IMG/VR virus record: IMGVR_UViG_3300026473_000726
Span: 1 to 40,078 of that record
DNA from: a virus
Direction: 5' to 3' (one strand)
DNA: 40,078 bases
Positions 13,370 to 23,915 of this stretch are shown in pieces. Positions within the stretch are counted from its first letter, which is position 1; every line of letters begins with the position of its first letter. The notes beneath the pieces were generated by a model, which saw only the letters and a program-made list of their open reading frames with translations, searched no databases and was not told the origin of the DNA. The translations under genes were made by a program, and so were the position numbers.

Positions 13370-14791
13370 TTATGCGGCGACAACCGCAATCGGAAACGCA
13401 TTTCGAACCTGCAGGACAGGAACCACGGTCTGCATGTCCCCGCCAGACTCGATAAACGCAAGACTGATGACGTCAATCACGTTCTGTCGTGACGAGCGAA
13501 TTGCATCAGCCTCAATCCGGGTCAGGATCAGCCCTTGGGTCTGGTAGTACAGAGCTGCGGCCATGACCGCCAGGTTGTGCGCGAACGAGTTGTCGCAGGC
13601 AGCGCGCCAGTAGCCGCCCTCCAGAAACAGGCATGCCCCCTTGCAAAGTTGCACCACTGGACAACGTGGGCATTCGATTCGGGTGCTGAAGTGGTACGCC
13701 GTATTCAGTGCGATGTCGTCAAATTGCTCAACGTGACCGATCCTGTGATGGGTCGAAGCACTCATGTTCTGGCAGGTCGTCACATTGCCTTTCATGTCCA
13801 CGGCAATCGAGTCATCACGATCCATGCCGCACTTTTGACCCAAAGTTTTCAGCGGCCTGGACTGTGCCTGCGCCCGCATGAATTCGTCGACTTTGTCACG
13901 CATCGTCCCCACCGACATGCCAGAGCCTGTCACGAGTTCCCAAAACATCTGGTGGCGGTATCGATCGAGATCAGTACCTTCCAGCGTCAGCGAAAGACCA
14001 CCCTGGTCATAGGGCAGCATCACTTCCTCGGTGGCCAACACAATGGCCTGAACTGGCAGATCGAGCTTGTCAGCGAAAAACTGCCTAACCGCCTTGAGGG
14101 ATTGGTTGTGCCGGTGCAGAACCGTGTTGAAGCTCATTCGATCCAGTGGCATGCGCCTGGATACCCATCGCTTGATCTGAACAATCCTTTCAGGATCAGC
14201 CAATGGATCTGGGCCACGGAATGACTGGGCAGGACCGTCATGAGACAAGCCAATCCCGATATCCAGCGCTTCCACCCAAGCCAGTTTTTCGTCATCGAAT
14301 AGCGATCCGTTCGTCACGATCGACAACTGAGCATTGGGATAGCGGCGTTTGACTTCCTCCCCCAGGGGCTCGAGCAATTTCCAATAAACAAAGGGCTCTC
14401 CACCCCAGAACTCGATCTTGACGCCAAAACCCTGGCCATCCTCTCCTCCAGCAAACCACCCCTCGAGTTGCTGCATGAAAGGCTGGACATCGTCCGGGTG
14501 CCCGTCAAGGTCATGGGGCTGGTGCGCCTGTGAGCAGTATTGGCATGCGTAATTGCATTTGAGGCCCAGCTGCAGCTTGAGATGGCGAATTGCCCTTGAT
14601 TTTCCGGCCGGATTGGAGGGGTGATGCAAATGCCAAAAAGGCTGCCACTGCATGCCCTCCTGGCGAGCAAATGCCTGTGGCAATGGCAAAGGCTCCCCAC
14701 TGTCTTTCCAGACCAGGCTGGAGTCCTCAGGGTTGTAGACGGCCTGTCGCTCAAACCCGTTCTTGCCATTGAGGGTGAGTGTAAATTTCAT
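13370..14791 (-). CDS. Radical SAM/SPASM domain protein (peptide maturase-like)
   Basis: Predicted iron-sulfur radical SAM enzyme, 473 residues. The 4Fe-4S/SAM motif is CNYACQYC (C79, C83, C86). An EFWGGEPF segment follows, characteristic of SPASM and anSME relatives. The C-terminal SPASM region has the full cysteine pattern: C321...GNVTTC340, then C374-x2-C377-x5-C383-x3-C387 and C399, expected to hold two auxiliary 4Fe-4S clusters. Enzymes of this class modify peptides (thioether crosslinks in sactipeptides, formylglycine in sulfatases, other RiPP crosslinks). No sulfatase gene is near. Its start overlaps the 69-residue gene as ATGA. It closes an operon of three oxygenases beside a Cys-Asn-rich tail fibre, which is the best substrate candidate (inference). 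Confidence 0.9.
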   Translation of the reverse strand: MKFTLTLNGKNGFERQAVYNPEDSSLVWKDSGEPLPLPQAFARQEGMQWQPFWHLHHPSNPAGKSRAIRHLKLQLGLKCNYACQYCSQAHQPHDLDGHPDDVQPFMQQLEGWFAGGEDGQGFGVKIEFWGGEPFVYWKLLEPLGEEVKRRYPNAQLSIVTNGSLFDDEKLAWVEALDIGIGLSHDGPAQSFRGPDPLADPERIVQIKRWVSRRMPLDRMSFNTVLHRHNQSLKAVRQFFADKLDLPVQAIVLATEEVMLPYDQGGLSLTLEGTDLDRYRHQMFWELVTGSGMSVGTMRDKVDEFMRAQAQSRPLKTLGQKCGMDRDDSIAVDMKGNVTTCQNMSASTHHRIGHVEQFDDIALNTAYHFSTRIECPRCPVVQLCKGACLFLEGGYWRAACDNSFAHNLAVMAAALYYQTQGLILTRIEADAIRSSRQNVIDVISLAFIESGGDMQTVVPVLQVRNAFPIAVVAA

Positions 14792-14997
14792 GAAAAAGCT
14801 TCCTCGAATGCGATGGGGTATGCCTCTCGGCAAACCTGTGCCGGGTCAGCACCCGGCATCATTTGGATGTTGAAAACATGACGGCCAGAAGCTTTGCCGT
14901 CGGGATTGGTGACCAACACAGTCATGCGCAGGGTGCTGTCGTCCACACGGACCACATCCACCTCATAACCTGGACGGGTATGTAAATTCAAAGACAC
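14788..14997 (-). CDS. Small protein of unknown function upstream of radical SAM enzyme
   Basis: A 69-residue acidic protein, probably beta-rich in its first two thirds (VDVVRVDDSTLRMTVLV) with a helical C terminus (QVCREAYPIAFEEAF). No family recognised. It overlaps the oxygenase upstream by 10 bases and the radical SAM gene downstream by 4 (ATGA), so its translation is coupled to both. Its position directly before a SPASM enzyme is where small recognition or chaperone proteins (PqqD/RRE type) often sit, but I see no clear winged-helix pattern and do not assign that function. One Cys only, so it is an unlikely crosslink substrate. Confidence 0.7.
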   Translation of the reverse strand: MSLNLHTRPGYEVDVVRVDDSTLRMTVLVTNPDGKASGRHVFNIQMMPGADPAQVCREAYPIAFEEAFS

Positions 14998-15671
14998 AAC
15001 GTCCCTCCTCTGAGCTCGGTGTACAGATCGCTGTAGTTGTGAGAGGCGACCCGTAGAGTCACCACCAGAAGGGTTCGCTCACCCTGGGCATTGAAGGGGT
15101 TGGTTTCATGCCAGATGCGCGATGGATGCAGGACCACAAGTCCAGGAAAGGTTTCGATGTAGCGAACCTTCTCCCAAAATGGAAACCCCGCCATTGGGCG
15201 GGGATCCTGCAAGATAAGTTCACCGTCACCGACGGTCCAGCTGCGTTGATGCGGTGGACTTCGTCCTTGCCCGCAATCCAGATACAGACACAGGACATGG
15301 TCACAGGTGTGGTGGTAGTGCGGCTGAGCCCGCATGCCAGGCTGGTAATGCACGGGAATGCATCGCGCCTCGATTTTTAGCTCCTGGGCATTGCGCACAC
15401 CATGTGCTTCGAGCAGGTAGTTGCGGTAGGTACGCTCTACCCAGAGTTTCCATGGATGCCAGACTGCCGGTGCATGCGCCTCATGATGGGCATGAAACAG
15501 ATTGAGCTGGACCCTCAGCCGGACGTCCACATCAGGCAAGCCGTGCACGGGTGGATGTGTCTGATGGTCATGAAATCTTTCGACCGTGTAGCGCCGAAGT
15601 TCATCCATTTCAGACTGAATCCAGGGTGCCGTGTCCTTGAGCACTGGCGTTGGCCAGAGGTATTCGATCAT
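14988..15671 (-). CDS. 2-oxoglutarate/Fe(II) oxygenase-like protein (third of three)
   Basis: A 227-residue protein with a probable double-stranded beta-helix fold. Candidate iron ligands are the cluster PHYHHTCDH (H118-D124) and H188 in LHPSRIWHETNPF; R199 may bind 2-oxoglutarate. It also has YLDCGQG and GLVVLHPS, typical strand and turn sequences of prolyl-hydroxylase-like enzymes. The start at 15671 (MIEYLWP) overlaps the stop of the preceding oxygenase as ATGA. This protein diverges clearly from its two neighbours, so the trio is not a recent tandem duplication. It probably hydroxylates a phage peptide or a small molecule; the tail fibre is the suggested target. Confidence 0.75.
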   Translation of the reverse strand: MIEYLWPTPVLKDTAPWIQSEMDELRRYTVERFHDHQTHPPVHGLPDVDVRLRVQLNLFHAHHEAHAPAVWHPWKLWVERTYRNYLLEAHGVRNAQELKIEARCIPVHYQPGMRAQPHYHHTCDHVLCLYLDCGQGRSPPHQRSWTVGDGELILQDPRPMAGFPFWEKVRYIETFPGLVVLHPSRIWHETNPFNAQGERTLLVVTLRVASHNYSDLYTELRGGTLCL

Positions 15672-16246
15672 GGCGCCACCTCCGAACCAAACGCCACCGC
15701 GATACGCAAGGCGTTGCAATAGCGGGAGATCGGACGGGCAGCATGGCGCATGCAGCCATTGATCTGCACCATCCGATTGGGCTTGACCATGGCTGCCGCC
15801 TGGATTTCACCCAGATCGTCCAAGACCACCAAATCCCCTCCCCAATCCGCACTCCACTCGGCTACCGGGTACCAGATCACGGATCTTGCCGTGTCCTGAA
15901 ACTCAGTTGGGAAGTCCCTGTGCAGCGAAGCCTCATCTCCGAACGCTTGCACATTGACCCACAGGCGCGTGATCTCTGCGTTGGGAAAGAACTGATCTTT
16001 GACCTGCAGGGCCACTCTGGCCAGTGGTCCCCCCTGGGCCACAAACGCATCAAAAGTACGTTCTGGCTGCCATGTACCTGCGTCATAGTGGTGGTTGTAC
16101 TTTCCTGGCAGCACAAAATTTCGGTGCCAAAACACCCCAGGGGCCTTGGCATGCGCTTTCCAGCCAAACACCAGGTTCTGGTTCAACAGCCACTGGCGAC
16201 ATTCGGCGGCCAGCTCGTGATCGATCAAGCCATCAACGATTTGCAT
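15668..16246 (-). CDS. 2-oxoglutarate/Fe(II) oxygenase (second of three)
   Basis: A 192-residue non-haem iron oxygenase. The facial triad is seen as H109-x-D111 (SLHRDFP) and H168 (GCMRHAARPISR), with R175 or R181 as the probable 2-oxoglutarate carboxylate ligand. Middle strands read SVIWYPVAEWSADWGGDLVV, common in phage- and cyanobacteria-type 2OG dioxygenases. The start MQIVDGL at 16246 gives a 14-base overlap with the preceding gene; longer upstream frame sequence is not conserved in character. Cytoplasmic, no signal peptide. It belongs to the translationally coupled modification operon. Confidence 0.82.
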   Translation of the reverse strand: MQIVDGLIDHELAAECRQWLLNQNLVFGWKAHAKAPGVFWHRNFVLPGKYNHHYDAGTWQPERTFDAFVAQGGPLARVALQVKDQFFPNAEITRLWVNVQAFGDEASLHRDFPTEFQDTARSVIWYPVAEWSADWGGDLVVLDDLGEIQAAAMVKPNRMVQINGCMRHAARPISRYCNALRIAVAFGSEVAP

Positions 16247-16832
16247 GGTCTTGTCCTTCCAATGCCTGAACCCGGAACTCAAAATGGACCTCCACACTCG
16301 GCCGGGTGCCGTTGTAGGGGTGGGAATGGTGCGCCAGGTAGCTCGGGAAAATCACCAGCAGGCCGGGGTACGGATGGATGATTTCCGAGCGCCAGCCTTC
16401 CCATGGCAATTTGCGGCTGCCGTAAGCACCGCTGGGATTGACCAACACAAAAGCGCCGGAGTAGTCCTGGCGAGAAGGATCTGGCCGAGCATTTCCGTCA
16501 ATCCAATACACCGCCGAGAGATCGGTGTCTTCGGCATGCAGCGGAATGAACTGACCAGGTTGTGTGATGACCTCTCGGGCGGTTTGCCACACGGGTTCAC
16601 ACTGGTAGGCGTGACCAATGGCTTCACGAACCTGATTTACCAGGGGTCTGAAGACGTCACAGCAGCTTTCATGATCGATCAGGGACTGACGGCTTTTGCG
16701 CGCCCAGGGCTGACCGTCCCGATTGAGCCGCTGATGAAAATCCATTGCCCCTTTGAGCATCTGATCACGCAGGCCATCCTCAAAACTCAGTTGTCCCTGG
16801 TAGACCCGAGCAGAAAACAGTTCGCGAATCAT
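16233..16832 (-). CDS. 2-oxoglutarate/Fe(II) oxygenase (first of three)
   Basis: A 199-residue protein resembling the 2OG-FeII_Oxy_5 type found in phages. The first metal motif is PLHAEDTDLSAVYWID (H99 with E101 or D102) and the distal part is IFPSYLAHHSHPYNGTRPSVEVHFEF (written here as two strands, FPSYLAHHSHP and RPSVEVHFEF), with H168-H171 and R177. The expected reaction is oxidation of a substrate C-H bond coupled to 2-oxoglutarate decarboxylation. The start overlaps the stop of the 268-residue gene as ATGA. The three oxygenases differ strongly from one another, which suggests three distinct positions or steps. Confidence 0.78.
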   Translation of the reverse strand: MIRELFSARVYQGQLSFEDGLRDQMLKGAMDFHQRLNRDGQPWARKSRQSLIDHESCCDVFRPLVNQVREAIGHAYQCEPVWQTAREVITQPGQFIPLHAEDTDLSAVYWIDGNARPDPSRQDYSGAFVLVNPSGAYGSRKLPWEGWRSEIIHPYPGLLVIFPSYLAHHSHPYNGTRPSVEVHFEFRVQALEGQDHANR

Positions 16833-17644: not shown

Positions 17645-17755
17645 TCAGCAACAACCGCAGCAGGCACAGTTGCAATTGCAGTTCGTTCGACAGTTGAAAG
17701 CCGTGTTTCCGCAGTTGCAGTTGGTGTAGCTGCCACAGTTGCAGTTGCAATTGCA
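17645..17755 (-). other. Cys-Asn repeat coding segment (fibre residues 301-336)
   Basis: Thirty-six codons in which 14 encode Cys and 10 encode Asn, mostly alternating (CNCNCNC, NCNC, TNCNCNCACC). DNA repeats of TTGCAG type arise only from this codon alternation. Such density is not seen in ordinary tail fibres made in a reducing cytoplasm. It suggests crosslinking, metal binding or enzymatic modification. Confidence 0.85.
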
Positions 17756-18655
17756 GGCTCGGTACCAGCGGTGGTATTCACCCCCACCGATCTCGTCTTG
17801 GGCCAGGTAGTAACCGTCGTAGTTGTAGCCCGTGCTGGGCACAGCGTTGTAGGCATAGGTTGTTCCCCCTGCACCGTCGTATTGGCCCGAGTTAGCGCAA
17901 TAGTTAAACCCCAGGCCCCACGTCCACCAGCTGGTATTGGAAGGTTTCCAGTACGTATTGCCTGCGCAGTTGCCGGTCGGCAAGATGCCGTTGCAGTTAC
18001 CCGCCAGGTCGTCGTAGTACTGGTTGCTGCGCCCCATCTCGCCAATGTCCTGACCATCGTTCATGCGATAGCCAGTGTTGCGAGCGTTGTCAGCCGCACC
18101 GGATTGCGAGGAATAGATCACCGCACCACTGCCCATGTACAGATGACCTGTCATCGTGTCACCGGCTTTGGCCAATCGACTGGACAAATCGATCGGTACG
18201 GTGGCATTGCCACTGGCATCAGGTGCGTTGCCATTGACTGAGCGGACAAAGGCCGTGGAGTCATAGCCATCGAGCTTGTCAGCGTCCGCTGCCTTGGCCG
18301 TGATGCCCAGGTATGCCGCGTTGTGGTTGTGGCCCAGCGCTGCATACGCCGCATCGTGGTTGTGTCCACTGAGTGCAAAACCAGTGGAATCGATGCCGTC
18401 CAGCAAGTCAGCATTGGCCACCTTGCCCAAGGTGGCTGAGAGGTCAATGACCATCTTCCACGTGACAGGACTGACCACGGTAAGGATGTAGAGCTTTTGC
18501 TCATCGGTCCTGAAGCACGGCATGCCCTGCTGCAGATTCACAGTCGGAAACGCCGTTCCGCTAGAGAGCGAGAGCGCCGTCTTGTCGTTGTTCAGGATCT
18601 GCGAAAGCGAGTCCGAGAGCGTCGTCGTGGATGGGATTTCGGTGTAGTTTTGCAT
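17645..18655 (-). CDS. Tail fibre protein with Cys-Asn repeat C-terminal tail
   Basis: A 336-residue phage tail fibre. Residues 1-75 are an N-terminal attachment region. Residues 80-135 contain the fibre repeats ADLLDGIDSTGF, GHNHDAAY, GHNHNAAYLG and ADADKLDGYDSTAF, typical of trimeric fibres. KAGDTMTGHLYMGSG follows, then a Tyr/Trp/Gly/Asn-rich tip (residues 190-298) with scattered NC and CN pairs (GNCNG, GNCAG, FNYCANS). Residues 301-336 form an extraordinary tail with 14 Cys and 10 Asn, starting CNCNCNCG and ending TNCNCNCACCGCC. It lies 11 bases after the preceding tail gene and 9 bases before the modification operon. It probably forms the receptor-binding tip. The tail is the proposed substrate for the radical-SAM and oxygenase enzymes downstream. 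Confidence 0.88.
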   Translation of the reverse strand: MQNYTEIPSTTTLSDSLSQILNNDKTALSLSSGTAFPTVNLQQGMPCFRTDEQKLYILTVVSPVTWKMVIDLSATLGKVANADLLDGIDSTGFALSGHNHDAAYAALGHNHNAAYLGITAKAADADKLDGYDSTAFVRSVNGNAPDASGNATVPIDLSSRLAKAGDTMTGHLYMGSGAVIYSSQSGAADNARNTGYRMNDGQDIGEMGRSNQYYDDLAGNCNGILPTGNCAGNTYWKPSNTSWWTWGLGFNYCANSGQYDGAGGTTYAYNAVPSTGYNYDGYYLAQDEIGGGEYHRWYRACNCNCNCGSYTNCNCGNTAFNCRTNCNCNCACCGCC

Positions 18656-18666
18656 TCAGTACCCTT

Positions 18667-19857
18667 TCAATACCCCTGGGCAACCCAAGAAATGGCTCCC
18701 GTCACGCGGGCGCCGGAGGTGTTTTCCAAAATGGCGGTGAAGCCTGCGGTGGTGACCGATCCAAGAATTCGAGGGATTGCCACGGTGGTACCGCCCTTGA
18801 AGGTCAGAGTGACCTCCGGCGAGACCCGGAAAGTCCGCACAAAAACGACCGCTACGCCACTGGACGCGGTGACCACCTGCGCCGTGCCTCGATCGAATAC
18901 ATCGGGCACGTCCACAGTCACCCGCAGGCCATCGATGTAGCCTCGGTCTGCGTTGCTGGAAGTCAGGATCGCCCTAAAAAGCGCACGCTGGTAGGTGTAG
19001 TCGCCCTGAATGAAGTCCCGGAAGTTGGTGTAACCGGGTGGATGACCAGACTCCAGGATGTCCATGAAGTCCTGCTCGGTGATCTCGGTGTTGGCAACGA
19101 TCATGTCGCTGATCACCCCATTGGCCCGGCGCCGATACTGCTCGGCCAGACCAAAGGCCTCGCTGAGCTTCAAGGTCTGCGCGCGCCTGATCGCCTCGCC
19201 AATGGCAAAGCCTTCGCTGATGGCACGGCGGTACGCGACCGTTCGACCGAGCGCCTCGGCCAGACTGAAGGCCTCGGAGATTTGCTTGACCTGCGACTTG
19301 ACCAGTGCATCGCTAAGCCTGAAGTTTTCAGCCTGTGGCTTGGTCATCCCTTTGGAAGGCTTCTCGGAAAAACTCAGACTTTCGGATACCCGCAGGATGT
19401 AAGCAATGAGGTCCGTGTAGGTCTCAGCCAGCGCCAGCGTCTCGTATTTGCGCAATACCAACTGCCGTGCCAGTCCCTCTCCCACCTGAAAGGTCTCGAA
19501 GACGGCTTTGGTGCCCGTGCGGGCGTACTTTTCCGTGAACGTCAGAGACTCAACGAAACGCAGCACAAAGGCAATCAGGTCGGTGTAGGTCTCGACAAAG
19601 TTCAGGTTCTCGTACTTGTTGAGTGCCAAAGCCCGGCTGGATTTATCCGAGAAGGCCAGGCTCTCAGAATTGCTCTTGATGCCCAATTTCTGAACCAACT
19701 CGGCAAAACTCAGGTCAGTGGCCACGCTCAGGGCGTAAACCGCCGGGTAGGCCGTCGTCCAGTTCTTGCCCGCCGTAGCGCTGCTCCAGGCAAACTTGCC
19801 GGAAGTCCAGGTGTAGTTGGCCCCCGGCGAGCTGGAGACGTTGACGGTCTCGGCCAT
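18667..19857 (-). CDS. Tail protein with tandem 18-20 residue repeats
   Basis: A 396-residue phage tail protein located between a short tail protein and the tail fibre. Residues about 47-250 consist of about eleven tandem units of 18 or 20 residues, each beginning with a pattern like E-[STNAG]-[LF]-x-[FLIV]-x-[ED]. Examples are ESLAFSDK, ENLNFVET, ESLTFTEK, ETLALAET, EAFSLAEA and EGFAIGEA. Two units share TYTDLIA. The regular period suggests an elongated solenoid or fibre shaft. The C-terminal 145 residues contain DFIQGDYTYQRALFRAIL and a beta-rich domain ending GAISWVAQGY. No enzymatic motif is seen. It is probably a structural tail-tip or side-fibre component. Confidence 0.75.
   Translation of the reverse strand: MAETVNVSSSPGANYTWTSGKFAWSSATAGKNWTTAYPAVYALSVATDLSFAELVQKLGIKSNSESLAFSDKSSRALALNKYENLNFVETYTDLIAFVLRFVESLTFTEKYARTGTKAVFETFQVGEGLARQLVLRKYETLALAETYTDLIAYILRVSESLSFSEKPSKGMTKPQAENFRLSDALVKSQVKQISEAFSLAEALGRTVAYRRAISEGFAIGEAIRRAQTLKLSEAFGLAEQYRRRANGVISDMIVANTEITEQDFMDILESGHPPGYTNFRDFIQGDYTYQRALFRAILTSSNADRGYIDGLRVTVDVPDVFDRGTAQVVTASSGVAVVFVRTFRVSPEVTLTFKGGTTVAIPRILGSVTTAGFTAILENTSGARVTGAISWVAQGY
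19107..19719 (-). repeat. Coding tandem repeats (about eleven 54/60-bp units)
   Basis: The units encode the 18-20 residue repeats described for the tail protein. They are diverged at DNA level and clear mainly in protein: spacing between successive E-x-[LF]-x-[FLIV]-x-[ED] motifs is 18,18,20,18,18,20,18,18,20,18 residues. They look like old internal duplications maintained by structure. Confidence 0.65.
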
Positions 19858-20405: not shown

Positions 20406-23400
20406 TCAATACAGCCTGAGGACCGTGTATCCGGCAGTGGGTTGCAAAGGACTGCTTGCGCTTTGCACATCGCCGCCCATCTTTCCGACAAAGAGCCTGC
20501 GTTCAGTGGCCGTCTGACACACACCAACGCAAATACGGTCGCTGACGCTCACGAGGTATGGCACGACGATTCGGTTGAACAAGTTGTCTTCCAGAAAGAA
20601 GCTGCCTGCCGCCGCATCGAAGCCCACAAGCAGGCTCACCCCTGCACCAGATGCTGTCCAGATGACCGAGGTGGTGATTTGGTTTGGGATGAACCAAAAG
20701 CTCACATGGAACACCCCCGGGATGCTCACACCCCAGGAAACCCGGGTCGTGTCCTTGATGAGTACCCCACTGCCGTACCGCCCGTCGCCATAGCTCACGC
20801 CCACGGCCTCCCCACTGGTAGGGCTGCCGTACCCTGCCAGCGCACCATTGAGGCGCCAGCCGTACAGCTCTCCGGCCTGCAATGCATCTTCGCGCGCCAT
20901 CTGAAACCTCGCTTCAATGCTTTTGAGCGCGCCGTCATAGGTCCATTGCCGTTTGGCAGCATTGCTGCTCCAGACATAGTTCGCAGTCGACCAGGTTTCC
21001 CTATCATCCAGCGTGGCCCCGATGCTGGCCAGCAGGGTGTTTTGCGCTCGGTAGCTGGTGGGCAGATTCACCTCGAACAGGTACTCGGACTGAGCCACGC
21101 CACTGTCCATGCGCAGCACATCCAGGCTGTTGACCGATTCGACCGACGCGAAATGCTTCACCCCTGGAAACCGGGTGGCTTGTGCATCGATGGTGACCAG
21201 CAGGTTGGCGTTCTGGGGCTGGGCCACCACCGTCGAGACGAAGGTGGCCTCGTCCGAGTAGATGCCCGGCGAGGCGATTGCCTTGATCCAGAAATTACGC
21301 TCACCGTCAAAGCCCGAAGGCAAAGTGAAGCTGCTGGACTTGACCTCGGCAATAAAGATCGAGGTGTCCCAGGCCGTGCCTTCTCGCAGCTCATAGGCCA
21401 CCACTTCCGGCTCAGGATTGGGCAGCCAGCGAAACTCCAGCCGGTTGGCCGACTGGACCACATCAAACTGCCGCACTGCGGCTGGTGCCAGCAGGAGCAA
21501 CTCGAAGGTAGCGACATGCTGGCTGTATTTCCCAGAGGTGTCAAAGGCTCGGATGAAGTAGTTGTACCGACCTGATTCGCTTTGATCATGCACGAGCTGG
21601 GTCCCAGCGGTCTGTCCAACCAGTGTGCCTGCATCCCAGCCCGCTCCCACTCTCACCTCGTACCCTGCCAGATCGGCATCCGTGTTGGCGCTCCAGCTCA
21701 GCAGCAGATCGGTCGTGCGGCGCAGCACCGCAAAGTCCTGCACATCATCGGGCGGCTGCAACTTGCCAAGGATGGTCTGGCTCAAAGTGGCCGAGGCCCC
21801 AAGCTTTCCGGACACTCCCACAGCCCGAACCGTGAAAACATAATCCCCGGCCTCGGCGTTTCGAATCTCCAGATAAGTGCTCGAACTCCGGGGCAAGGTG
21901 ACGTTGTTGCCGCCATTGACCCGATAGTTCACCTGGTACTCCAAGGCGCCGAAGACCTGCTCCCATCCCAACTGAATGAGCACCAACGCCTGATCCTTGA
22001 CCCGGTACAGGCTCTCGGTGACCAACAGGCCCGTAGGCGCCACAGGCGTAGTGGAGAGCACCGTGATATCACGAGGCTGCAGTGCCAGCCCTCGCTCGAT
22101 GGCGTCGTACTTGCTCGGATTGTGAGCCAGTGCTGTGACTTCATGGATGCCAGGCTCGCTCTCGGCGACCTGCACCACCCTGAACAGTTGCGTCTCCACT
22201 TGGCTGGAGGCCAGCACCCAGATGGCACCCACCTGAGGTGCCGATGAGAATGCGCTGGTCACACCGACGGTGCGACCCGACAGGGATCCGACTTGGCGTT
22301 CCTCCACCACTCCCGTGGGCAGCAGCACAGAAATGCGCCACGAACCGGCGGGCAGGTCCTGATCCAGCGTGACGCTTATCGTGGTGGCCGCAGCGATGCG
22401 TCCACCAAGGCGCAGGCCACCCCGGCTGCTGTCTGCAACCTTGATGACATCGCCCGGACGCACAACAGCTCCTTCCAGCCCCGTGCGGAATGTGATGATT
22501 TCCGATTCGGACTGCTCGGAATACAGCAGCCACTTGCCCACCCGATGGGCTTGACCTCGGGAGGTGCAGCCCATGGCCACCACATCGGCCTGAACCACGC
22601 CATAGCGGGCAATGCCTGCCATGTCTTCGACGTATTCCACCTTCTGACGGTAGAAGTCATCCGGATCCACCCAGCTGACCAATGCAACCGTGTGCCGCGC
22701 CTTGGCGGATGACCCCTGGTAGGCAAACTCACCATCGATGACGTTGGCCGCCGTGAACTGGTAGACCGGATCCTGGGGCGCATCCTGAGTGACAGTGATT
22801 GCCCCGCCCGACCAGTAAGCCATGCCCCTGAAGATCGAGGCCATGTCCTGCACCACCTTGTAGGCTTGCTCGCGGCTTTGCAGATACAGGTTGCAGGTAA
22901 ATCGCGGCTCATAGCCACCCAGTCCATTGGGCACGAGTTCGTCACAGTAACGGGCCACCCGGTACAGCGCCCATTTGTCGACCTGAGACTCCGGTATGAA
23001 ACTACCCAGACCGTAGCGGGTATTGGTCACCAGGTCATAAAAGCACCAGGCTGGGTTGTCTGTCCAGGCCACCTTGAAGGTACCGTCCCAGATCCCACTG
23101 TACGCACGGGTCTCTGGTGTGTAGTTCGAGGGGATGCGAACGCGCAGGAGCTTGAGGTCATAACTGCGCCGTGGAATCGAGGTGAATTGTGAGGCATCCA
23201 CCCGCAAGGCCATCAGGGCGCTGTTGGGATAGCGCAGCTTGCTTTCGATTACTTCGGTGTACGAATCTAGAAGTGTCTTGTTCTGCAGGCTGGTCTGCGT
23301 CGAGTCGGCCGTGATGCGGCGCAGGCGCACATCCCAAGGACCAGCGCCAATGAGTGGGACGTAGTAGCTGCGCTGGTAGCGCGAAGTGGTTTTGCCAGAG

Positions 23401-23915
23401 ACCGTGTCGGTAACCACCTGCACATACCCGGCTCCCCGCGCCTGCACGTCGATCGCGTAGCTGACCGAAGTGCCGTTCAGGTCACCGTTGGCGGTGTCTT
23501 GCAGCGTGAGCGTCGGGATACTGACCTTGATGCGCACGGCATCCACGTCAGGATCAGTGATGGAGCGCACCACCGGCTGATTGACTTTGCACTCCACCCC
23601 AACAGCCACTTCGTTTTCCACAGCGGAGAAGCCGGGAATGTAGCTTTGCTGCTGGGTGCCAGGGCGGGTTTCGAGCGTGACCCCTGTGAAGTTGTAGCTG
23701 CCGTCCGGATTCTGGATCGGGGTGTCGTCCAGGTAGACGGATTGCAGGTCAGCGGCCAAGCCCTCGATCTCACCCTCGCAGACGAGGTCAACCACCCTGG
23801 CATAGGCCTTGGAGCGCAGGCTGTCGGGCGCTTCCTGCGCCACACGTGCGCTGCCGCCCCCACTCTTTCCACCGCCACCGGCGCCAATGATCAGAGAAGT
23901 GCTCTGGGTGCTCAT
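20406..23915 (-). CDS. J: Host specificity protein J (tail tip attachment protein)
   Basis: A 1169-residue central tail-tip protein. The N-terminal 600 residues follow lambda J: KSGGGSARVAQEAPDSLRSKAYARVVDLVCEGEIEGL (shown as GEIEGL at about residue 50), SYVPL-type and QVSGKTTSRYQRSYY segments, and KARHTVALVSWVDPDDFYRQK near 410. From about 625 come three fibronectin type III-like domains (VAPTGLLVTES, DVQDFAVLRRTTDLLLSW, AVRQFDVVQSANRLEFRW). The C-terminal 250 residues resemble a LamG/concanavalin-like domain (DGRYGSGVLIKDTTRVSW), suited to binding a surface glycan. It overlaps gene I as ATGA. J trimers close the tail tube and contact the host; the divergent C terminus should set receptor choice. 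Confidence 0.92.
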   Translation of the reverse strand: MSTQSTSLIIGAGGGGKSGGGSARVAQEAPDSLRSKAYARVVDLVCEGEIEGLAADLQSVYLDDTPIQNPDGSYNFTGVTLETRPGTQQQSYIPGFSAVENEVAVGVECKVNQPVVRSITDPDVDAVRIKVSIPTLTLQDTANGDLNGTSVSYAIDVQARGAGYVQVVTDTVSGKTTSRYQRSYYVPLIGAGPWDVRLRRITADSTQTSLQNKTLLDSYTEVIESKLRYPNSALMALRVDASQFTSIPRRSYDLKLLRVRIPSNYTPETRAYSGIWDGTFKVAWTDNPAWCFYDLVTNTRYGLGSFIPESQVDKWALYRVARYCDELVPNGLGGYEPRFTCNLYLQSREQAYKVVQDMASIFRGMAYWSGGAITVTQDAPQDPVYQFTAANVIDGEFAYQGSSAKARHTVALVSWVDPDDFYRQKVEYVEDMAGIARYGVVQADVVAMGCTSRGQAHRVGKWLLYSEQSESEIITFRTGLEGAVVRPGDVIKVADSSRGGLRLGGRIAAATTISVTLDQDLPAGSWRISVLLPTGVVEERQVGSLSGRTVGVTSAFSSAPQVGAIWVLASSQVETQLFRVVQVAESEPGIHEVTALAHNPSKYDAIERGLALQPRDITVLSTTPVAPTGLLVTESLYRVKDQALVLIQLGWEQVFGALEYQVNYRVNGGNNVTLPRSSSTYLEIRNAEAGDYVFTVRAVGVSGKLGASATLSQTILGKLQPPDDVQDFAVLRRTTDLLLSWSANTDADLAGYEVRVGAGWDAGTLVGQTAGTQLVHDQSESGRYNYFIRAFDTSGKYSQHVATFELLLLAPAAVRQFDVVQSANRLEFRWLPNPEPEVVAYELREGTAWDTSIFIAEVKSSSFTLPSGFDGERNFWIKAIASPGIYSDEATFVSTVVAQPQNANLLVTIDAQATRFPGVKHFASVESVNSLDVLRMDSGVAQSEYLFEVNLPTSYRAQNTLLASIGATLDDRETWSTANYVWSSNAAKRQWTYDGALKSIEARFQMAREDALQAGELYGWRLNGALAGYGSPTSGEAVGVSYGDGRYGSGVLIKDTTRVSWGVSIPGVFHVSFWFIPNQITTSVIWTASGAGVSLLVGFDAAAGSFFLEDNLFNRIVVPYLVSVSDRICVGVCQTATERRLFVGKMGGDVQSASSPLQPTAGYTVLRLY

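Follow-up and report, generated by a model that had tools for sequence, protein, structure and literature searches.

Genes at the tail fibre locus

The window, by which we mean the whole 40,078-nt stretch of an IMG/VR virus record, contains a module of genes that all lie on the minus strand. Its putative substrate is a tail fibre or receptor-binding-type protein of 336 aa with an ATG start (17645–18655), the last 36 codons and stop of which form a Cys-Asn tail (17645–17755). Along the minus strand, the gene order is J, a 396-aa protein, the fibre, P268, three 2OG genes, a radical SAM gene and a glucosaminidase gene. The central tail fibre J or host specificity protein (20406–23915, minus strand; phrog_31, E = 0) and the 396-aa upstream tail protein (18667–19857, minus strand; ORF and PHROG search) belong to the context outside the module.

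The module genes behind the fibre share its strand and mostly overlap. They begin with P268 (16829–17635), a partner protein of no known family, modelled as a beta domain at the N-terminus and an Ig-like domain at the C-terminus. Three accessory genes follow, encoding a 2OG-Fe(II) oxygenase (OXA, 16233–16832; PF13759, 27.8 bits), a 2OG-Fe(II) oxygenase of a second type (OXB, 15668–16297; PF13640, 27.0 bits) and a 2OG-Fe(II) oxygenase-like protein (OXC, 14988–15719; PF13759, 26.2 bits). By Pfam gathering score (cut-off 27 in each case), OXA and OXB pass and OXC falls short by 0.8 bits; the OXA profile also finds OXC. The last gene encodes a radical SAM/SPASM enzyme (rSAM, 13370–14791), the putative tail maturase, with PF04055 and TIGR04085 matches above cut-offs; its mechanically called ORF begins at 14833, and the conserved start is probably the ATG at 14791.

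The Cys-Asn tail is a selected protein feature

The fibre terminates in ...EYHRWYRACNCNCNCGSYTNCNCGNTAFNCRTNCNCNCACCGCC directly before the stop codon, and its final 36 residues are CNCNCNCGSYTNCNCGNTAFNCRTNCNCNCACCGCC. Exactly as the first-pass annotation had counted, these contain 14 Cys and 10 Asn; the binomial probability of at least 14 Cys in 36 residues is 6e-20 at the background Cys frequency of 0.88% in 18 other genes of the window. Only four further Cys occur in the fibre, at residues 47, 221, 230 and 253. Cys 221 and Cys 230 lie in isolated NC pairs of the tip domain (GNCNGILPTGNCAGN, 17960–18002, minus strand), so the additional pairs that had been reported there are real, and similar NC pairs occur in relatives. 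The tail contains no His, and hence no His-X-His motif of the T4 gp37 type, and it matched no family in the libraries searched (Pfam, NCBIfam, PHROG and PADLOC). Residues 1–174 of the fibre match gp28 of the Achromobacter phages JWF and 2-1 at 37–38%; the PHROG tail-fibre match is weak.

When the tail codons were compared with those of 18 fibre relatives of the same type, 140 differences were synonymous and 23 non-synonymous. The replacements fell on Ser, Thr, Gly, Arg and one Asn without a Cys neighbour, and there were none at Cys or at Cys-adjacent Asn. This synonymous excess, with Cys and Cys-adjacent Asn untouched, argues that selection holds the amino acids and not a DNA repeat. The Cys-Asn tail is therefore a protein-level feature, with strong selection acting on its Cys and Asn. 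Across tails, the residue between Cys is Asn at 76% of positions, Ala at 11% and Asp at 7.5%, and the tails of two loci (L142 and L144) are built as (Cys-Lys)n. Since spacers other than Asn occur, including Lys, Asn is preferred but not essential.

Two variants of tail organization were also recorded. At three loci (L138:6209–7063, L139:6210–7064 and L221:3–248), a three-residue period (CSYCSYCTYC) stands ahead of the usual CNCNC, and two rSAM genes are present. At four others (L205:4306–5959, L179:7111–7907, L183:3830–4710 and L383:4479–5391), two to three small tandem proteins, each with a CN tail, share one rSAM/P268 set.

Tail and enzyme predict each other

Tail proteins that end in alternating Cys-X runs occur repeatedly in IMG/VR contigs, in prophages and in two cultured Achromobacter phages, linked to a single radical SAM/SPASM enzyme family, and a Cys-Asn-tailed tail protein with an adjacent radical enzyme of the peptide-modifying type is found in hundreds of bacterial viruses. 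In a forward test that was blind to enzymes, IMG/VR was scanned with a degenerate DNA pattern for CNCNCNC. A locus counted as a case if translation of the pattern gave CNCNCNC close to the end of an ORF, and as a control if the same DNA pattern fell in a different frame (mostly structural proteins with repeats of the ATATATV type); near-identical loci were clustered. Profiles were built by iteration, starting with the proteins of the window and extending through the ORFs of every locus retrieved; the enzyme profiles were thus trained on the tested loci, but they were seeded from the window and applied equally to the controls. With these profiles, rSAM adjoined 38 of the 45 CN-tail clusters compared to 1 of the 56 control clusters (Fisher 1.7e-19), P268 was present in 34/45 compared to 0/56, and OXA in 18/45 compared to 1/56. 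The seven cases lacking rSAM comprised four contigs that end near the tail (L019, L089, L103 and L113) and three short spurious ORFs (L104, L107 and L158), and the sole rSAM-positive control (L022) is in fact a CN-tail phage, in which CNCNCNC is in frame and precedes another domain. CNCN-tailed fibres lacking adjacent enzymes, which the first-pass annotation had proposed to look for as evidence against a modified tail, thus failed to appear: given enough downstream sequence, a radical SAM/SPASM gene was practically always next door.

The converse was found as well. In a reverse test, IMG/VR and GTDB genomes were searched with the enzyme alignment alone, and loci with at least 5 kb of upstream sequence were counted. 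A Cys-X tail protein was found at 55 of the 58 IMG/VR enzyme loci (49 by the strict pattern alone) and at 52 of the 65 GTDB loci (again 49 by the strict pattern alone); the tail-less GTDB loci for the most part encode divergent enzymes from Bacteriovoracaceae, Variovorax and Ramlibacter. Grouped into lineages at < 72% identity, 82 of 103 enzyme lineages had a tail nearby, with the tail gene upstream in 77 of these 82; P268 lay within 7 kb in 65 of them, a 2OG gene in 36 and neither in 12, and 11 carried more than one rSAM. About ten divergent enzyme lineages have no Cys-X tail nearby, mainly from Bacteriovoracaceae (L266, L268, L269, L271, L281 and L284, etc.) and from Variovorax and Ramlibacter (L277, L283, L285 and L287).

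Fibres that are ~90% identical to that of the window over the first 172 residues have entirely different tip domains. Nevertheless, every covered end among these tip-swapped relatives finishes in a Cys-X tail, which in one of them (L346) is placed ahead of a Hint domain, and the enzyme is present wherever the downstream sequence suffices. These comparisons indicate that fibre bodies and tips are exchanged while tail and enzyme are retained. The bodies of the tail proteins in 62 of the 82 lineages join one BLAST group, and ten more groups are unlinked, which suggests a spreading cassette and not 82 independent inventions.

Other arrangements were seen at single loci. At L014:3051–10408 and L092:240–5579, CN-tailed proteins of 67–79 aa accompany three to four consecutive radical SAM genes in a multi-enzyme variant, and at L423:6274–6762 the run CQCDCVCACECQCDCLC stands near the N-terminus of an ORF after rSAM, so that the arrangement is apparently inverted.

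The enzyme has a complete predicted radical SAM/SPASM machinery

The window enzyme scored 31.5 bits with PF04055 (cut-off 29.5) and 33.4 bits with the SPASM profile TIGR04085 (cut-off 27). The CX3CX2C motif and the full seven-Cys SPASM motif (CX9-15GX4C..CX2CX5CX3C..C) were found in 36/36 aligned members; by these motifs, the predicted catalytic machinery is complete. An AlphaFold model (pLDDT 89) gave CteB, ChlB, TigE and anSME as the best PDB fold matches. Among curated NCBIfam profiles, the nif11 maturase (59 bits, cut-off 519), PapB (57 bits, cut-off 340) and QhpD matched best, and SCIFF (29 bits, cut-off 425) and HxsB (42 bits, cut-off 370) scored lower; none of the curated cut-offs of the named maturases (PapB, QhpD, nif11, SCIFF, HxsB and anSME) was reached. 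As the best profile and fold matches are peptide or protein maturases, all under cut-off, the enzyme is best regarded as a maturase of its own family, and with scores this far below every curated cut-off its reaction cannot be read from family membership. Pfam gave no PqqD/RRE match, and the N-terminus of the model is a three-strand segment without the RRE helices. Weak PADLOC matches to viperin were dropped as general radical SAM similarity, since a SPASM domain is present. Radical SAM proteins of Campylobacter phages match only 25–31% of the window enzyme and no Cys-X tail gene is listed alongside them, and they were excluded from the counts. A search of plasmids for a distant rSAM gave no match.

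P268 and the 2OG oxygenases are frequent but not constant partners

P268 had no Pfam, NCBIfam or PHROG match, and its homologues occur beside CN tails. Its AlphaFold model (pLDDT 88.5) includes an Ig-like match to intimin D00; the PDB fold search returned Ig-like matches only and no enzyme, and among viral models only uncharacterised phage proteins matched. By its modelled fold, P268 is non-enzymatic, and our guess is that it might present the substrate or cap the tip. It is absent from 17 of the 82 lineages that retain tail and rSAM, for example from JWF. The first-pass annotation had also raised hydroxylation of Asn by 2OG oxygenases. Because 2OG genes accompany only 36/82 lineages and the spacer is not Asn at a quarter of positions, this cannot be the common core reaction, and 2OG action on Asn would be accessory at most.

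The tail is followed by a stop codon or by predicted self-removing domains

In most lineages, a stop codon follows within a few residues of the tail. In JWF, 2-1, Burkholderia paludis MSh1 and others, the run passes directly into a Hint domain whose first residue is Cys (NCNCDCNCNCS-CFPAGT); that of JWF gp28 matched Pfam Hom_end_hint (PF05203) with 47.5 bits (cut-off 32.1, 3e-12), and Pfam found no Hint domain in the window fibre. The DNA pattern for a Hint-type Phe behind the tail mostly hit other frames, and the Hint fusions were found via the enzyme side. On the enzyme tree, the Hint class requires at least three separate changes. Hint-type domains cut the chain before their Cys. At two further loci (L142:1679–2419 and L144:2152–2946), a very long (Cys-Lys) run with > 20 Cys leads into the WSDEKLK/WSDGRLK of a Peptidase_S74 domain, with rSAM a few kb downstream; the Peptidase_S74 intramolecular chaperone cuts itself off in endosialidases. 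By analogy, Hint and S74 cleavage in CN-tail proteins is a predicted self-removal, and in a few lineages these domains could serve as followers. At L022:41–934, L433:8314–9195 and L205:5168–5959, the CN run is followed by a domain beginning (S/G)KIIC(T/A)KLY..., possibly another removable domain.

Hosts and cultured carriers

The genomes that match most closely belong to freshwater Comamonadaceae, namely a Hylemonella MAG (95%) and Limnohabitans sp. Jir72 (85%). In a set of 50,697 sequenced phages, matches spanning most of the enzyme are confined to JWF and 2-1, which accounts for the system having stayed unnoticed. These two phages and prophage strains such as Limnohabitans, B. paludis MSh1 and Nereida ignava carry the module in culture, and the two phages provide cultured fibres with a CN run and a Hint domain (L147:5503–6954, JWF gp28; L148:5635–7077, 2-1). 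In their records, the annotations are limited to Hint, radical SAM and hypothetical proteins. A search of the open-access literature brought up nothing on radical SAM or RiPP chemistry in phage fibres; a pelagimyophage paper describes radical SAM cassettes in a variable region and does not link them to tails (PMC7029224).

In Nereida, Thalassobacter and Thalassovita (L242, L244, L246, L250 and L279), the order is P268, 2OG, a CN-tail protein of ~95 aa, 2OG and rSAM. This conserved Rhodobacterales module adjoins host polysaccharide genes, and Thalassobacter stenotrophicus has three loci. Gene transfer agents were suspected from the several copies per genome and were rejected, as the host polysaccharide genes of L242 are accompanied by tail fibre genes of the usual phage kind, which encode collagen and S74 domains.

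A proposed RiPP-like maturation of the fibre tip

As in RiPPs in general, a ribosomal precursor with a putative core lies beside its own modifying enzyme. We propose, with a probability of roughly 70%, that a virion tail protein carries its Cys-X tail as a fused RiPP-like core, which the adjacent dedicated SPASM enzyme modifies; given tail and neighbouring enzyme, the fibre tip is very probably remodelled chemically after synthesis. The rSAM/SPASM enzyme encoded just downstream would recognise the fibre end, probably aided by P268, and modify the Cys of the alternating run. The likeliest reaction would be the formation of carbon-sulfur (thioether) bonds, which we favour because most of the enzyme's closest characterised relatives make such bonds and because the period is built on Cys. 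In a fibre that is probably a trimer, thioethers could stiffen the C-terminal tip into a rod or cap, and 2OG oxygenases, where encoded, may add a secondary modification. The tail would have to be terminal in the mature particle, whether a stop codon, a Hint domain or a self-cutting S74 chaperone stands behind it. No leader or follower protease was found in the window module, and in most members the putative core would stay on the fibre. The fused core peptide that the first-pass annotation had envisaged is thus strongly supported by genetics, its chemistry being a prediction, and the annotation's reading is borne out in part: Asn hydroxylation as the shared chemistry has to be given up.

Other readings were weighed against this proposal. 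The annotation had itself offered a free tail that binds metal or forms disulfides; in this case, the tail might hold metal or an Fe-S cluster, as in the His-X-His iron tip of T4 gp37, and the neighbouring enzymes would act elsewhere. Cys is the commonest metal ligand, and a trimeric alternating Cys-X strand would offer three Cys per layer in a geometry like that of the HxH tip. However, such a tail leaves the near-obligate radical SAM partner unexplained, and (Cys-Lys)n tails occur within the same family. The reciprocal adjacency of tail and enzyme makes a dedicated substrate far likelier, and we consider a free tail improbable; a modified tail may itself bind metal. We attach still less weight to the idea that the enzymes target P268, a host surface molecule or another phage protein and that the tail merely docks or regulates them. 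P268 is indeed linked to the tail as tightly as the enzyme is (34/45 compared to 0/56), and 11 of the 82 lineages have more than one rSAM, but the 17 without P268 keep tail and rSAM, and the Cys-rich peptides on which SPASM maturases act are encoded by neighbouring genes.

The nature of the modification was considered likewise. An anSME-like conversion of Cys into formylglycine or another carbonyl, giving a reactive aldehyde array that could bond amines of the host surface, would suit a tail that stays free at the chain end; among solved structures, anSME ranks near the top in both the profile search (4k36, E 3e-16) and the fold search, and the JWF homologue carries the GenBank name 'anaerobic sulfatase-maturating enzyme'. 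Against this, the enzyme scored only 34 bits with TIGR03942 (cut-off 349), the tail has no CxPxR-type sulfatase motif, and thioether-forming maturases score equally or better, so we hold this conversion to be unlikely. Epimerisation of alternate residues into an alternating D/L beta-helix, instead of crosslinks, would fit the strict two-residue period, and rSAM epimerases such as EpeE are among the fold matches; yet EpeE ranks low (E 3e-6 compared to 4e-12 for CteB) and the Cys-based period would be left unexplained, which makes epimerisation very unlikely.

Thioether formation on a fused core thus remains our preferred reading. With slightly less assurance than for the modified core itself, we think it probable that the locus represents an undescribed virus-encoded maturation, in which a radical SAM enzyme rewrites a Cys-X fibre tip into a crosslinked or reactive non-proteinogenic one, the modular cassette being kept as bodies and tips are swapped. 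If true, the host contact of many uncultured phages would rest on chemistry invisible to sequence or structure programs, and a virion protein would be made by RiPP-type chemistry. It would also define a new radical SAM family whose protein-fused substrate is directly apparent from genome sequence, and would account for a possible failure of such fibres when they are produced recombinantly.

Comparison with known systems

In ranthipeptide/SCIFF and sactipeptide systems, the maturases CteB, PapB, SkfB and RumMC likewise join a radical SAM domain to a full SPASM domain, and their ribosomally made, Cys-rich substrates are encoded alongside; the phage enzyme matches CteB best by fold, and PapB is among its best profile matches. 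In contrast to these, the putative phage substrate is the C-terminus of a tail protein, mostly of 100–600 aa, and not a free peptide, the tail has a period-two Cys-X pattern, no leader protease or exporter was seen, and the scores lie far under the curated cut-offs. The same SPASM architecture is found in anSME, the second-best PDB profile match, but the phage tail lacks its CxPxR site and the enzyme stays far under the TIGR03942 cut-off. QhpD is a radical SAM/SPASM enzyme that modifies a structural protein, the QHNDH gamma subunit, and not a secreted peptide. It resembles the phage enzyme in profile (E 7e-14) and in having a structural-protein substrate, but the score is 51 bits against a cut-off of 453, the substrate differs and the gene neighbourhood is unrelated. 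In the His-Xaa-Ser system (HxsA–HxsD), a short-period repeat likewise ends a longer protein and dedicated radical SAM enzymes accompany it (E 4e-11 for the HxsB profile), but the repeat is His-Xaa-Ser and not Cys-Xaa, and we know of no such system from phage fibres.

T4 gp37 has an iron-binding HxH tip at the distal end of the fibre. There, too, ligand-type residues alternate at the distal end, but in the phage tail Cys replaces His and a modifying-type enzyme always accompanies the Cys-X run. The gp28–gp30 genes of JWF are a true cultured member of the system, with a fibre carrying NCNCDCNCNCSC, then gp29 and then rSAM (phrog_1802); compared to the window, a Hint domain is fused behind the tail, and P268 and 2OG genes are absent. 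Taken together, these comparisons place the enzyme class among known kinds, and what would be new is a virion tail protein serving as the dedicated substrate of a radical SAM enzyme.
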